Source: Xylocopilactobacillus apis (GTDB taxonomy: Bacteria > Bacillota > Bacilli > Lactobacillales > Lactobacillaceae). From it: a stretch of 64,000 bases of DNA. Location of the stretch: NCBI RefSeq assembly GCF_033095965.1, contig NZ_AP026801.1, positions 744,001 to 808,000 on the forward strand, in the 5' to 3' direction. The position numbers and the translations under genes are program-made. Position 1 is the stretch's first letter. Each line of letters starts with the position of its first letter. Positions 41,426-59,645 of this stretch are shown piece by piece. Below the pieces are notes generated by a model that made no database searches, had not been told where the DNA came from, and worked only from the letters and a program-made list of their open reading frames with translations.

Positions 41426-42415
41426 ATGGCTAAAGAAATTGGCATTGATCTAGGGACCGCCAATGTCCTTATTAATCAAAAAGATAAGGGGATTGTTTTA
41501 AATGAACCATCTGTAGTTGCAGTGGAAACGAAAAGTAATCGGGTAGTTGCTGTTGGTTCAGAAGCTTACCGGATGGTAGGAAGAACCCCCGGAGATATTA
41601 GAGTGATACGCCCACTTAAAGATGGAGTCATTGCTGATTTTGATATTACTGAACAGATGTTGACTTATTTTATCAATAAATTGAATTTGAAAGGTTTTAT
41701 GTCACGCCCAACGATTTTGATTTGCTGTCCAACTAATATTACATCGATTGAACAAAAGGCAATTATTGATGCTGCTGAAAAGGCTGGCGGGAAAAAAGTT
41801 TATCTTGAATTAGAACCCAAAGTAGCTGCAGTTGGAGCAGGTCTTGATATTTATGAACCGAGCGGTAATATGGTAGTTGATATTGGTGGTGGAACGAGTG
41901 ATATTGCTGTTCTTTCAATGGGAGAAGTAGTCACGAGCCGATCTTTGAGACTTGCTGGAGATGCAATGGATACAGAGATTGCTAATTTTGTACGGCAAAA
42001 GCATAACCTTTTGATCGGAGAGAGAACTGCTGAAAAGATTAAAATCGACATTGGCTATGTGTATAAACCCGATCCAGAGGTTTCTGTTGAAGTTAGAGGA
42101 CGTGACATGGTTTCTGGTTTGCCGCGTGAAATCACAATAAGTTCTGTAGAAGTATCAGAGGCATTGCATGATTCGATGTTATCAATTATTGCTGGAGCAA
42201 AGGAAGTTTTAGAAAAAACTCCTCCTGAGCTTTCGGCTGATATTGTAGACCGTGGTGTAATGTTAACAGGGGGCGGAGCTTTATTACGAGGAATCTCTCA
42301 AATGTTTTCAGATAGTTTACAAATTCCAGTTATTGTTGGTGATGAACCTTTATTAGCAGTTGCGCTTGGAACAGGAATTTTACTCGATCATCTTGATAAA
42401 GGATTAAAAATTTAA
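41426..42415 (+). CDS. Rod shape-determining protein MreB/Mbl (canonical)
   Basis: 329 aa actin-fold ATPase that forms membrane-bound filaments guiding lateral wall synthesis. Phosphate-1 GIDLGTANVLI, connect/adenosine region LELEPKVAAVGAGLD, phosphate-2 VDIGGGTSDIAVLS and adenosine motif TGGGALLRGIS are all intact. It heads an operon with epuA, yidD and rodA, the order in which Mbl is found in lactobacilli. It is the only MreB in this window with a complete nucleotide site. Confidence 0.95.
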   Translation: MAKEIGIDLGTANVLINQKDKGIVLNEPSVVAVETKSNRVVAVGSEAYRMVGRTPGDIRVIRPLKDGVIADFDITEQMLTYFINKLNLKGFMSRPTILICCPTNITSIEQKAIIDAAEKAGGKKVYLELEPKVAAVGAGLDIYEPSGNMVVDIGGGTSDIAVLSMGEVVTSRSLRLAGDAMDTEIANFVRQKHNLLIGERTAEKIKIDIGYVYKPDPEVSVEVRGRDMVSGLPREITISSVEVSEALHDSMLSIIAGAKEVLEKTPPELSADIVDRGVMLTGGGALLRGISQMFSDSLQIPVIVGDEPLLAVALGTGILLDHLDKGLKI

Positions 42416-56451: not shown

Positions 56452-56522
56452 TAGTTTTTAATAATTTTATTGATTTAAATTATAGGTAATTTGGTAAATG
56501 GATTAGATTTTTTGTTTTAATT

Positions 56523-56576
56523 ATTTGCTTTGCGTAATTTTTTTATATAGGAATAAAAAAGGAGCGTAAAGCAAAT
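56523..56576 (+). promoter_or_regulatory. Hairpin sequestering the radC start codon
   Basis: ATTTGCTTTGCG (56523-56534) pairs with CGTAAAGCAAAT (56565-56576), 12 bp with one G-U. The right arm ends inside the ATG (56575-56577) and starts just after the GGAG RBS (56561-56564). Confidence 0.5.
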
Positions 56577-57222
56577 GGATTCATTAAGAACTTTTGAAAT
56601 TTATGATCAAATTAAAAATTTTGGAATTTCAACAATTACAACAGAAGATCTACTTTCAATAATTATTCGTTCTGATTCGAGAGAAGATGATGAAGTAAGT
56701 GATGACTTTGATTTGAGAGATTTAGCATTTTTAAATTTCAAGGAATTAAAAGATAAGACCGGTATTTGTGATAATACAATCTATAAATTATTATGTTCAG
56801 TAGAATTAGGCAATCGTGTTTTTAAAAGCTGCCGTTTGAGGTATGGACAATTAACAACTAGTAAGGAAGCCGGAGAGATATCTCTTAGTTTTTTCAATAA
56901 TATTTATCAGGAATGTTTGGTTGGCTTTTTTCTAGATGTTAATAGAAAACTGATCAAGAGTGAAATAATCTTTAAAGGAACCCTTGATGCTAGTATTGCA
57001 TGTCCAAGAGAAATTTTAGAATTTGCCTTAAAATATCATGCGCATAGTTTTATTTTGGCTCATAATCATCCAAGTGGGGAATGTAGTATATCTCCTGAAG
57101 ATATTCGTTTTACTAAAAAAATGAATAGAGCTGCCCGAATTGTAGGAATTGAATTTACGGATCATCTAATTATAGGGACTGAACGCTATTTGTCCTTGCA
57201 AGAAGAAAATTTATTTAGTTAG
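56575..57222 (+). CDS. radC: RadC family JAB-domain protein
   Basis: 215 aa. N-terminal helix-hairpin-helix-like part (shortened: IIIRSDSREDDEV where ELLAILLRTGT is usual), then the JAB metalloprotease fold with AHNHPSGECSISPEDI and ITD-like FTDHLIIG. The JAMM residues (His-x-His...Ser...Asp) are present. The role in repair is doubtful despite the name. First gene before mreBCD, the standard order in Firmicutes. Confidence 0.92.
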   Translation: MDSLRTFEIYDQIKNFGISTITTEDLLSIIIRSDSREDDEVSDDFDLRDLAFLNFKELKDKTGICDNTIYKLLCSVELGNRVFKSCRLRYGQLTTSKEAGEISLSFFNNIYQECLVGFFLDVNRKLIKSEIIFKGTLDASIACPREILEFALKYHAHSFILAHNHPSGECSISPEDIRFTKKMNRAARIVGIEFTDHLIIGTERYLSLQEENLFS

Positions 57223-57233
57223 GGTTGAAAAAA

Positions 57234-58220
57234 ATGTTTAATTTTGGTGTTAAATACCTTTCAGTTGATCTGGGACAAGTCAATACAACTATTAAGTACG
57301 ACCAGACAGATAACTTGGTAAAAGAGCCAACTATTGTGGCTTTTGATGTTATAAAAAAGGATTATATTTCATTTGGAATAAATGCAGAGCAACTTGTGGG
57401 ACGGTTTCCAACTAGTAAATTAATTGTTAGACCTTTTAAGAATGGGAAGATTGTAAATTATAATGCAATGCTATATTTTGTAAAAAGTCTTTTGATGAAA
57501 TTTGGACCACTAGATCGGCTTAATGTTTTGATTTCTATCCCTAATTTTCCTAATTTTAGAACCAAAGAGCGTTTCAAACATGAATTAATGGCAATGGGTG
57601 TTAGAAATGTGACTGTTGAGGATAAAATTATAACAAATACTGTTTATTTAAGAAAAAAAGAAAAGTTATCGGTTAGTCATTATTTATTGATAGATATTGG
57701 GAGTAATCTTACAAGTTTTGCCAATTTTTCTGACCAAAAATTAAAAGTAAGATTGTTCAGACAAGGAATTAATAGTTTTAATCAACTAGTAAAGAAGGAA
57801 TTTATTGAAAAATTTGGAGTAATTTTAAGTAATAATACTGTAGAATATCTAAAAAGTAATTTTTTTATGAATTCATCCGATTATGATGGCAATCGTAATT
57901 TAAAAATTAAAGGAATTGAATCGAAGACAGGGTTGCCAATATATTTAAATATTTCTAATAAAATTATTGAGCAAATTACGAATAAAACGATGGATAGGTT
58001 TAGTAAAGAAATAAAAAAATTTATAAAAATACTTCCAGAATCAATTCAAAATCATATAATAAGACAAGGAATTATTTTGACTGGTGACAGTTCCTTGCTT
58101 AATAACCTATCGTTAGCAGTAAAAGAAAAAACCGGGTTAACGGTTTTAATACCTCCCAATCCAGCTGATAGCGCAGCAATTGGTGGCTGGGATAAATTAA
58201 TTGAGTTAAGCCATGGATAA
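57234..58220 (+). CDS. mreB: Degenerate MreB in the mreBCD operon
   Basis: 328 aa from ATG 57234 (AGGG 8 nt upstream). Position radC-mreB-mreC-mreD and overall pattern (REP-like VKEPTIVAFD, VGRFPTSKLIVRPFKNGKIVNY) show it is MreB. But phosphate-1 is VDLGQVNTTI instead of DLGTANT. Phosphate-2 is IDIGSNLTSF instead of DIGGGTTE. The catalytic Glu region IEEPMAAA is VEDKIITNTV, and the adenosine motif is LTGDSSLLNN instead of LTGGGALL. It is unlikely to hydrolyse ATP; it may be a pseudo-actin that copolymerises with the canonical MreB at 41426. Confidence 0.82.
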   Translation: MFNFGVKYLSVDLGQVNTTIKYDQTDNLVKEPTIVAFDVIKKDYISFGINAEQLVGRFPTSKLIVRPFKNGKIVNYNAMLYFVKSLLMKFGPLDRLNVLISIPNFPNFRTKERFKHELMAMGVRNVTVEDKIITNTVYLRKKEKLSVSHYLLIDIGSNLTSFANFSDQKLKVRLFRQGINSFNQLVKKEFIEKFGVILSNNTVEYLKSNFFMNSSDYDGNRNLKIKGIESKTGLPIYLNISNKIIEQITNKTMDRFSKEIKKFIKILPESIQNHIIRQGIILTGDSSLLNNLSLAVKEKTGLTVLIPPNPADSAAIGGWDKLIELSHG

Positions 58221-58240: not shown

Positions 58241-59097
58241 ATGCCTAAATTTTTTTCCAATAAAAGATTAATTGTAATTTTAATATCATTTATTTTAGCA
58301 GCTTCATCGATTGTGTTTTCGATCCGAATCATTAACTATTCTAAAACTCCACCTTATCTTTTAAAATTAACAAATGATGTCATTGGAGTGACGAGCTATG
58401 TAGTTAATGAACCGGGAAAGTTAATTAACAATGGTTTTAAATTTCAAGGAGAATTGGTTTCAACGTATAGTGAAAATCAACGTTTGAAAAAAAAGATTGA
58501 TGAACTTGAACAAAATGAAACTAAGCTTGCAGTTTTGACTAAGGAAAACAAAGAATTAAAGAAAGAACTCCAGTTAAATGCAACTTTATCTGATTATTCT
58601 CAAATAACGGCAGCAGTTATTTCTCGTTCTCCTTCTAACTGGCAGGATTTGGTTATAATTAATCGTGGAACGGTGAACGGAGTTAAGAAAAATATGCCTG
58701 TGATGTCTGGATCGGGAGTGATCGGAAGAGTTATTGAAGCGGCAGACTTTACTTCTAAAGTTGAATTAATATCTTCTAATAGTAAAGTTGCTAATCATTT
58801 TTCTGCCCAAATAACATCATCTAACGGAGATGTTATTAATGGTGTAATTACAGGATTTTCTCAGAGTGAAGACGCGTTGATTTTTGGTGATGTTTCTAAA
58901 GATAGTTCGATAAAAGTTGGAGATTCAGTAGTTACGTCAGGTTTGGGGGGATTGTTCCTAAAGGTCTTTTAATTGGAAAAGTTAATAAAGTTGAAAAAAA
59001 AGATTACGGACTATCAACAATGATTTATGTAAAATCGGCAACTGATATTAATGATTTTAGCGTGGTAACGGTAATTGATCGCACAGTTGGTGATTAA
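58241..59097 (+). pseudogene. mreC: MreC, frameshifted
   Basis: Outer-face scaffold linking MreB, RodA and PBP2. Short cytoplasmic start, one membrane helix (RLIVILISFILAASSIVFSI), coiled coil (SENQRLKKKIDELEQNE), then the double beta-barrel. As read, the frame ends at 58972 within the barrel. Adding one G to the G6 tract 58945-58950 gives SGLGGIVPKGLLIGKVNKVE and an open frame to TAA 59095-59097. The repaired length of about 285 aa is normal and the remainder is well conserved, so this looks like a homopolymer error rather than decay. Confidence 0.88.
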
Positions 59098-59099
59098 GG

Positions 59100-59645
59100 A
59101 TGGATAGAAAATTATCTTTTAAAATTGGACTTTTTGCATTTATTGTTTTGTATATTTTGATTTTGATTGATGGATCAATCAGTTTTATTTCTCATTCAAT
59201 TCCCTTTATTTTTTCAAGTCGGATTTCTTGGATGGGTGGGCTAATCGGATTAACTGTTTTAACTTTTGAAATTGATTTCAATTTTGTCTGGGTTGCTTTA
59301 GTAGTCGGAATTATTGAAGATATCTTTTACTCAGGAGTAATTGGTTTTTATGCAGTTTCCTTTGTGATTTCAGCATTATTCCTTAGATGGTTAGAAAATC
59401 ATTTGCCGAATAATTTTATATATATTTTATCTTCCTTTTTTTTAACAATCACGTTATTTAGCTCAATTTATTATTTGCTTAATAGTTATCTTAATTTAAC
59501 TGATATAAGATTATTTCAGTATATTTCAGTATATTTGCCGACCACTTTATTTACTAATTTAATTTATTTTGTTATTTTATACTTACCAACAGAAAAAATT
59601 GTTGAGTATTTTAGGAAAAAGCTGGAATTGAAACATGAAAAATAA
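59100..59645 (+). CDS. mreD: Rod shape-determining protein MreD
   Basis: 181 aa, five or six membrane helices, no soluble domain. 2 bp after the repaired mreC end. Weakly conserved family; identified by position, length and hydropathy (FKIGLFAFIVLYILILIDG start). Overlaps thiT by 11 bp. Confidence 0.85.
   Translation: MDRKLSFKIGLFAFIVLYILILIDGSISFISHSIPFIFSSRISWMGGLIGLTVLTFEIDFNFVWVALVVGIIEDIFYSGVIGFYAVSFVISALFLRWLENHLPNNFIYILSSFFLTITLFSSIYYLLNSYLNLTDIRLFQYISVYLPTTLFTNLIYFVILYLPTEKIVEYFRKKLELKHEK

Follow-up and report, generated by a model that had tools for sequence, protein, structure and literature searches.

A long-standing question is how much of MreB function depends on its ATP cycle and how much on passive scaffolding. 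The closest precedent for the protein described here is the low-ATPase MreB3 of Spiroplasma. SpeMreB3 is without the E...T-X-[D/E] motif, polymerises when nucleotide binds, and has been suggested to serve as an anchor for partner MreBs; among 4832 non-Spiroplasma MreBs, this motif is reported from 95.8%, with ~4% being without some of it (PMC9597168). In some nucleotide states, SpeMreB1 is reported to reduce SpeMreB5 filament amounts (PMC12337190) and, therefore, one MreB paralogue can affect another. Depletion of mreB1CD rounds the cells of L. plantarum (PMC6473061), and ovococci are reported to encode MreCD but no MreB (PMC4607420). Among the residues mapped in Caulobacter MreB (CcMreB), E140, T167, and E169 comprise the ATPase core (PMC4051119, PMC9597168) and the substitution V118E leads to single protofilaments (PMC4051119), while the beta6-alpha2 loop of MreB closes the nucleotide pocket (PMC10718530). 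A limited search of part of the open-access literature yielded no description of a walled bacterium whose MreB is inactive or degenerate.

Here, we describe a divergent MreB homolog (hereafter, pseudo-MreB) encoded in the elongation operon of Xylocopilactobacillus apis. The reading that we favour, with the balance standing about even, is that pseudo-MreB diverged in place to become a non-ATPase, non-essential accessory of the Rod complex.

The locus and its host

The DNA that was analysed (the window) comprises 64,000 nucleotides of the X. apis genome and lies within a single contig of 2,271,855 bases; the G+C content of its blocks ranged from 31.8 to 35.0%. Positions are those of the window, and all features given by window coordinates are on the plus strand. 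The pseudo-MreB open reading frame (57234..58220) encodes 328 amino acids from an ATG at 57234, or 331 amino acids from a TTG at 57225. The ATG is favoured as the start, and the copy in the sister species G001 (probably X. apicola) begins at the aligned Met, with both proteins starting with MF; residue numbers nevertheless count the TTG as residue 1. Immediately upstream is radC (56575..57222; named by position and similarity), and downstream are mreC (58241..58972) and the mreD open reading frame (59100..59645). The order radC-mreB-mreC-mreD was also found in G001, where the same divergent mreB is in place with an intact frame and encodes a protein that is ~54% identical. The open reading frame and gene order therefore bear out the original prediction of a full-length protein in the canonical radC-mreB-mreC-mreD place. 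MreC, MreD, and a RodZ-type HTH_25 protein are encoded in all four genomes of the genus.

In X. apis, the mreC frame is broken at a run of six G (58945-58950) and reads on in another frame to 59097, while the three congeners encode an mreC of 285 amino acids. The break is possibly a homopolymer error (the published assembly is from PacBio data); otherwise, the strain has a truncated MreC. A further difference among the genomes concerns valS, which the three congeners have between thiI and radC and which is not present there in the window (56452-56574). The X. apis valS sits elsewhere (genome positions 497149-499797) and its product is 61% identical to that of G001 (534/876), while those of G001 and G002 are 78% identical (684/881). 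X. apis valS is perhaps a xenologous replacement.

X. apis KimC2 (2.27 Mbp, 34.9% G+C) and X. apicola XA3 (2.31 Mbp) were isolated from carpenter bees and are described as non-motile rods of 0.5 x 2-5 um (PMC10433979); the host habitat is very probably the carpenter-bee gut. This description contradicts the coccoid lineage that had been suggested as a setting for the divergent gene. The term 'mreB' is absent from the main text of the species description (PMC10433979).

Nucleotide motifs and contact residues of pseudo-MreB

The only match of pseudo-MreB in Pfam was MreB_Mbl (PF06723), at 124.6 bits across residues 11-321 and above the gathering score of 27 bits. Its score against the NCBIfam MreB model NF010539 was 121.3 bits, under the cut-off of 293, as compared to 455 for the canonical MreB of X. 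apis, with which it is 25% identical (MAFFT alignment). In phmmer searches, the E value was 1.3e-25 to PDB 7zpt, which we take to be Geobacillus MreB, versus 2.6e-6 to 7e1c, presumably the SpeMreB3 structure. Full-length homology to solved MreBs (E values of 6.6e-26 and 1.3e-25) suggests that pseudo-MreB adopts the MreB actin fold. Two AlphaFold models (pLDDT 49.0, pTM 0.43; pLDDT 36.5, pTM 0.27) were too poor to judge the pocket or surfaces.

Pseudo-MreB was aligned with CcMreB (PDB 4cze) and with 81 canonical MreBs, comprising 40 radC-linked and 40 atp-linked copies from 40 genomes (37 other genera) and the canonical copy of X. apis. The term 'radC-linked' denotes a position beside mreC, which was found at 40/40 loci, with a radC match at 26/40 and an mreD match at 27/40. 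The triad corresponding to E140, T167, and E169 was E, T, and D in 81/81 canonical copies. The phosphate-1 D-L-G-T and N, the three phosphate-2 glycines, and the adenosine T-G-G were likewise invariant in these copies, the phosphate-2 Asp being N in one copy and the last two adenosine positions varying among atp-linked copies.

Against this background, all four nucleotide motifs of pseudo-MreB are altered, as had been predicted. In the phosphate-1 loop (57261..57290; residues 13-22, SVDLGQVNTT versus GIDLGTANT in the radC-linked family), DLGTANT became DLGQVNT with D, L, G, N, and T kept; LG and NT were kept in both species, preceded by D in X. apis and N in G001. In the phosphate-2 loop (57687..57716; residues 155-164, LIDIGSNLTS versus VVDIGGGTTD), DIGGGT-x-D became DIGSNL-T-S, such that D, I, and G are kept and the last two glycines are lost. 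The G001 copy has DLGARQ here and, thus, GGG was replaced by GSN in one species and by GAR in the other. At the triad, X. apis has K134 (57624..57626), L162, and S164, whereas G001 has Glu, Gln, and Ser. In the adenosine motif (58077..58100; residues 285-292, LTGDSSLL versus LTGGGALL), TGGGA became TGDSS in X. apis and NGGGS in G001. Four residues near the beta6-alpha2 loop are also missing from both proteins relative to canonical MreB (57462..57467, between N80 and A81). By alignment, the nucleotide motifs of pseudo-MreB are broken, not erased.

Displacement of the motifs, as opposed to their loss, was rejected. The phmmer alignment to 4cze agreed with MAFFT at E140, T167, and E169. At the E140 column, the phmmer alignments to the two best PDB chains are shifted by one (Asp instead of Lys, still not Glu), and a MAFFT alignment of only the two window MreBs misplaces the E140 stretch. 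Because the gene occupies the same place and is similarly altered in a second species, the motif loss is not a product of chance or misalignment.

Contact residues have also changed. The CcMreB V118 position, at the antiparallel interface, is Arg in both species (R112 in X. apis; 57558..57560), a position at which all 40 radC-linked copies have V and all 41 atp-linked copies have I or V. At the intra-filament position S283, both species have Asn where 40/40 radC-linked copies have A or S, a change that is not obviously disruptive. In the hydrophobic alpha2-beta7 membrane-loop region (57489..57515), the stretch LLMKFGPLD is identical in X. apis and G001, with the CcMreB hydrophobic pair F102-V103 replaced by P-L.

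These substitutions bear on whether pseudo-MreB might still bind nucleotide. A low-ATPase, nucleotide-binding MreB could form stable, slow-turnover filaments to which the canonical MreB is anchored, in the manner suggested for Spiroplasma MreB3, which polymerises on nucleotide binding without the same E...T-X-[D/E] motif (PMC9597168). Both species retain the phosphate-1 L, G, N, and T and the phosphate-2 D and G, and the catalytic Glu and adenosine glycines of G001 leave room for some nucleotide binding. However, phosphate-2, the pocket-closing region, and the contact changed from V to R are altered beyond what is described for SpeMreB3 (PMC9597168), and we consider this explanation unlikely.

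Distribution, origin, and selection

In the X. apis genome, PF06723 matched one other MreB and two long open reading frames (629 and 449 amino acids), which were read as DnaK and FtsA. A third mreB, which the original prediction had left to be sought, was not found in a search of the genome. The other MreB is encoded at 41426..42415, downstream of atp genes; alignment and a score of 470.5 bits to PF06723 confirm it as canonical with all motifs present, and it also touches the FtsA, actin, and HSP70 models. All four genomes of the genus keep one canonical MreB, and these are 98.5-100% identical in pairwise comparisons, with 325/329 residues identical between the atp-linked MreBs of X. apis and G001.

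We then surveyed 397 sampled genomes of the family (E <= 1e-55, at most five candidates scored per genome). Two canonical MreBs were identified in 374 genomes, none in 16, and one in seven. The latter comprised the four genomes of this genus together with G065 and G167 (each ~65% complete) and G340, in which the second copy is divided between the ends of two contigs. Within this sample, a reduction from two canonical MreBs to one was confined to this genus. Among the genomes without a canonical MreB was G343, which is 100% complete and belongs to a genus whose other sampled members show two each; a switch from rod to coccus may have occurred inside that genus.

A profile of the two divergent proteins was searched against 295 genomes of the order, a sample that does not include G001. 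The self match scored 670 bits and the next at most 132 bits, which is the level of canonical MreBs; G061 (131 bits) and G039 (129 bits) were both canonical by alignment. Genome-contig scans with the divergent protein and a viral-contig scan with the canonical MreB found no relative. In BLAST searches, radC-linked copies scored above atp-linked copies (best 126 versus 106 bits) and, in a FastTree reconstruction, the divergent pair was sister to the canonical radC-linked clade (support 0.865), with several backbone supports low. The branch leading to the pair is very long (3.3), leaving its placement open to long-branch attraction. Horizontal replacement was rejected, since the BLAST scores and the tree, notwithstanding the long branch, put pseudo-MreB beside the radC-linked Lactobacillaceae clade.

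The two remaining congeners, G002 and G003 (85% complete), each encode one MreB, and their radC and mreC are 344 and 355 bp apart. No mreB remnant was found between these genes, the best tblastn match having an E value of 0.004 and being on the opposite strand. An assembly gap was rejected as the cause because a single contig spans radC and mreC. The absence of pseudo-MreB holds for the locus, and a copy may exist in the unassembled part of these genomes. The stretch between radC and mreC (L048 4268-4611; L049 13962-14316) is AT-rich and alike in both genomes, with an inverted repeat (GCCGC...GCGGC) close to mreC; the G002 stretch had no match in Rfam. Because half of the genus is without the gene at the locus, pseudo-MreB is dispensable in some backgrounds.

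For the same reason, an explanation as a slowly dying gene stays alive and is the main rival. One MreB would be enough and the radC-linked copy would have lost its function, the frame being preserved by its location with radC on one side and mreC on the other (translation coupling, polarity) or by the harm that a misfolded product would do, with the lineage of G002 and G003 having completed the loss. Such a history is consistent with the absence without trace in these genomes and with the rate of change. Between X. apis and G001, the divergent MreB is 53.5% identical (174/325) and is the fastest evolving of the measured operon genes, as compared to 69.3% for RadC (147/212), 70.7% for MreD (128/181), 208/317 for MraW, and 79.4% for MreC (193/243, the X. 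apis part before the frame break). The X. apis copy is also more decayed than that of G001, in that E140 is Lys and fewer conserved columns are kept. These columns are the 157 that were at least 95% uniform in the 40 radC-linked copies, of which X. apis kept 48, G001 kept 57, and both kept 38. Against decay, neither species has a stop or frameshift despite saturated synonymous divergence, and omega = 1 is rejected under pairwise codon modelling (2dlnL 188), with the intact frames of both species under purifying selection. Shared changes at the conserved columns also argue against it: of the 90 columns changed in both species, 49 have the same new residue and three the same deletion, whereas 38 changed differently. 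On this evidence, we judge gradual gene death to be rather unlikely.

Additional measures of rate point in both directions. Across the five genes modelled (divergent MreB, RadC, MreC, MreD, and MraW), omega for the divergent MreB was 0.021 (0.007-0.064) and within the range of its four neighbours (0.013-0.043), values that are unreliable given saturated dS. NG86 dN/dS was 0.23, as compared to 0.16 for RadC, 0.12 for MreD, 0.06 for MreC, and 0.17 for MraW, and identity by codon position was 0.65/0.77/0.47. On a fixed tree, the branch lengths of the divergent MreB were 13x those of MreC on the stem and 8.9x on later branches, and 7.9x and 4.8x, respectively, those of RadC (28 taxa). Along with the 49 identical replacements, 85 residues common to both species were never seen in the 40 radC-linked copies; therefore, much of the change was in place before the two species separated and has been retained since. 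Collectively, the divergent MreB was remodelled on the stem of the genus and has since been maintained as a protein while continuing to change. The suggestion of relaxed selection in the original prediction thus stands in part: the gene is faster than its measured neighbours and is absent at the locus in two congeners, while the coccoid setting does not apply.

That many positions, known contacts included, changed alike in both species would also fit a repurposed MreB-fold protein that acts outside the Rod complex (e.g., with RadC) and makes no contact to MreB filaments. However, the operon place with mreC and mreD is conserved in both species and there is no positive sign of another partner, and we regard such repurposing as highly improbable.

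Proposed role and comparison with described systems

Our preferred interpretation, in which pseudo-MreB assists the Rod complex without ATPase activity, follows from the loss of the triad, of two phosphate-2 glycines, and of the antiparallel contact in an intact protein that has been held in the mre operon. The radC-linked MreB would have been inherited vertically and, on the stem of the genus, freed from ATP-driven filament formation, with the atp-linked MreB keeping that work. Pseudo-MreB would then neither hydrolyse ATP nor bind it tightly, and would not assemble into the usual antiparallel double filament. It would be made together with MreC and MreD and, given the conserved stretch at the hydrophobic loop, may stay near the membrane. 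The operon place and this stretch suggest that pseudo-MreB could link MreCD/RodZ to the single canonical MreB filament, as an adaptor or a cap, such that the earlier proposal of a catalytically dead MreB acting as an adaptor between MreC and the active filament is plausible. Several observations count against an accessory role: evolution was fast after the species split, with dN/dS above that of the neighbours, which is not what a settled new function would show; the gene is missing from the locus in two congeners; the mapped interface residues are changed; and G001 keeps the catalytic Glu and adenosine glycines. The more specific proposal, that pseudo-MreB is a nucleotide-free pseudo-actin of the elongasome in a walled rod, possibly the first described, and a hetero-partner linking MreCD to the ATP-driven MreB filament, is one that we advance tentatively and with more doubt than confidence.

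A motif-stripped MreB that a rod keeps in its elongation operon, alongside a near-unchanging active MreB and with relatives that are without it, represents a natural experiment on ATP-independent MreB contacts. If it is a hetero-partner, it would be a natural separation of MreB scaffolding from the ATP cycle; if it is a dying gene, it would document a two-MreB system shrinking to one in a rod.

Among described systems, the canonical radC-linked MreB of Lactobacillaceae, which we take to be mreB1 of L. plantarum mreB1CD, shares with pseudo-MreB its place before mreC and its length, and is its sister in the tree. It differs in that E...T-X-D, the phosphate-2 glycines, and V118 are kept in 40/40 copies, whereas the X. 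apis copy lost all of these and the G001 copy all but E140. The atp-linked, Mbl-type paralogue of X. apis belongs to the same family but has canonical motifs throughout. Like the ovococci, G002 and G003 have MreCD without an operon MreB at this locus; unlike them, all four genomes of the genus keep a canonical MreB elsewhere and the two described species are rods. Spiroplasma MreB3 is likewise an MreB paralogue without the ATPase motif beside active MreBs, but its host is wall-less and it still polymerises on nucleotide binding. Furthermore, the positions of E140, T167, and E169 are D, K, and S or T in Spiroplasma MreB3, as compared to K, L, and S in X. apis and E, Q, and S in G001 and, in this respect, pseudo-MreB is not MreB3-like.
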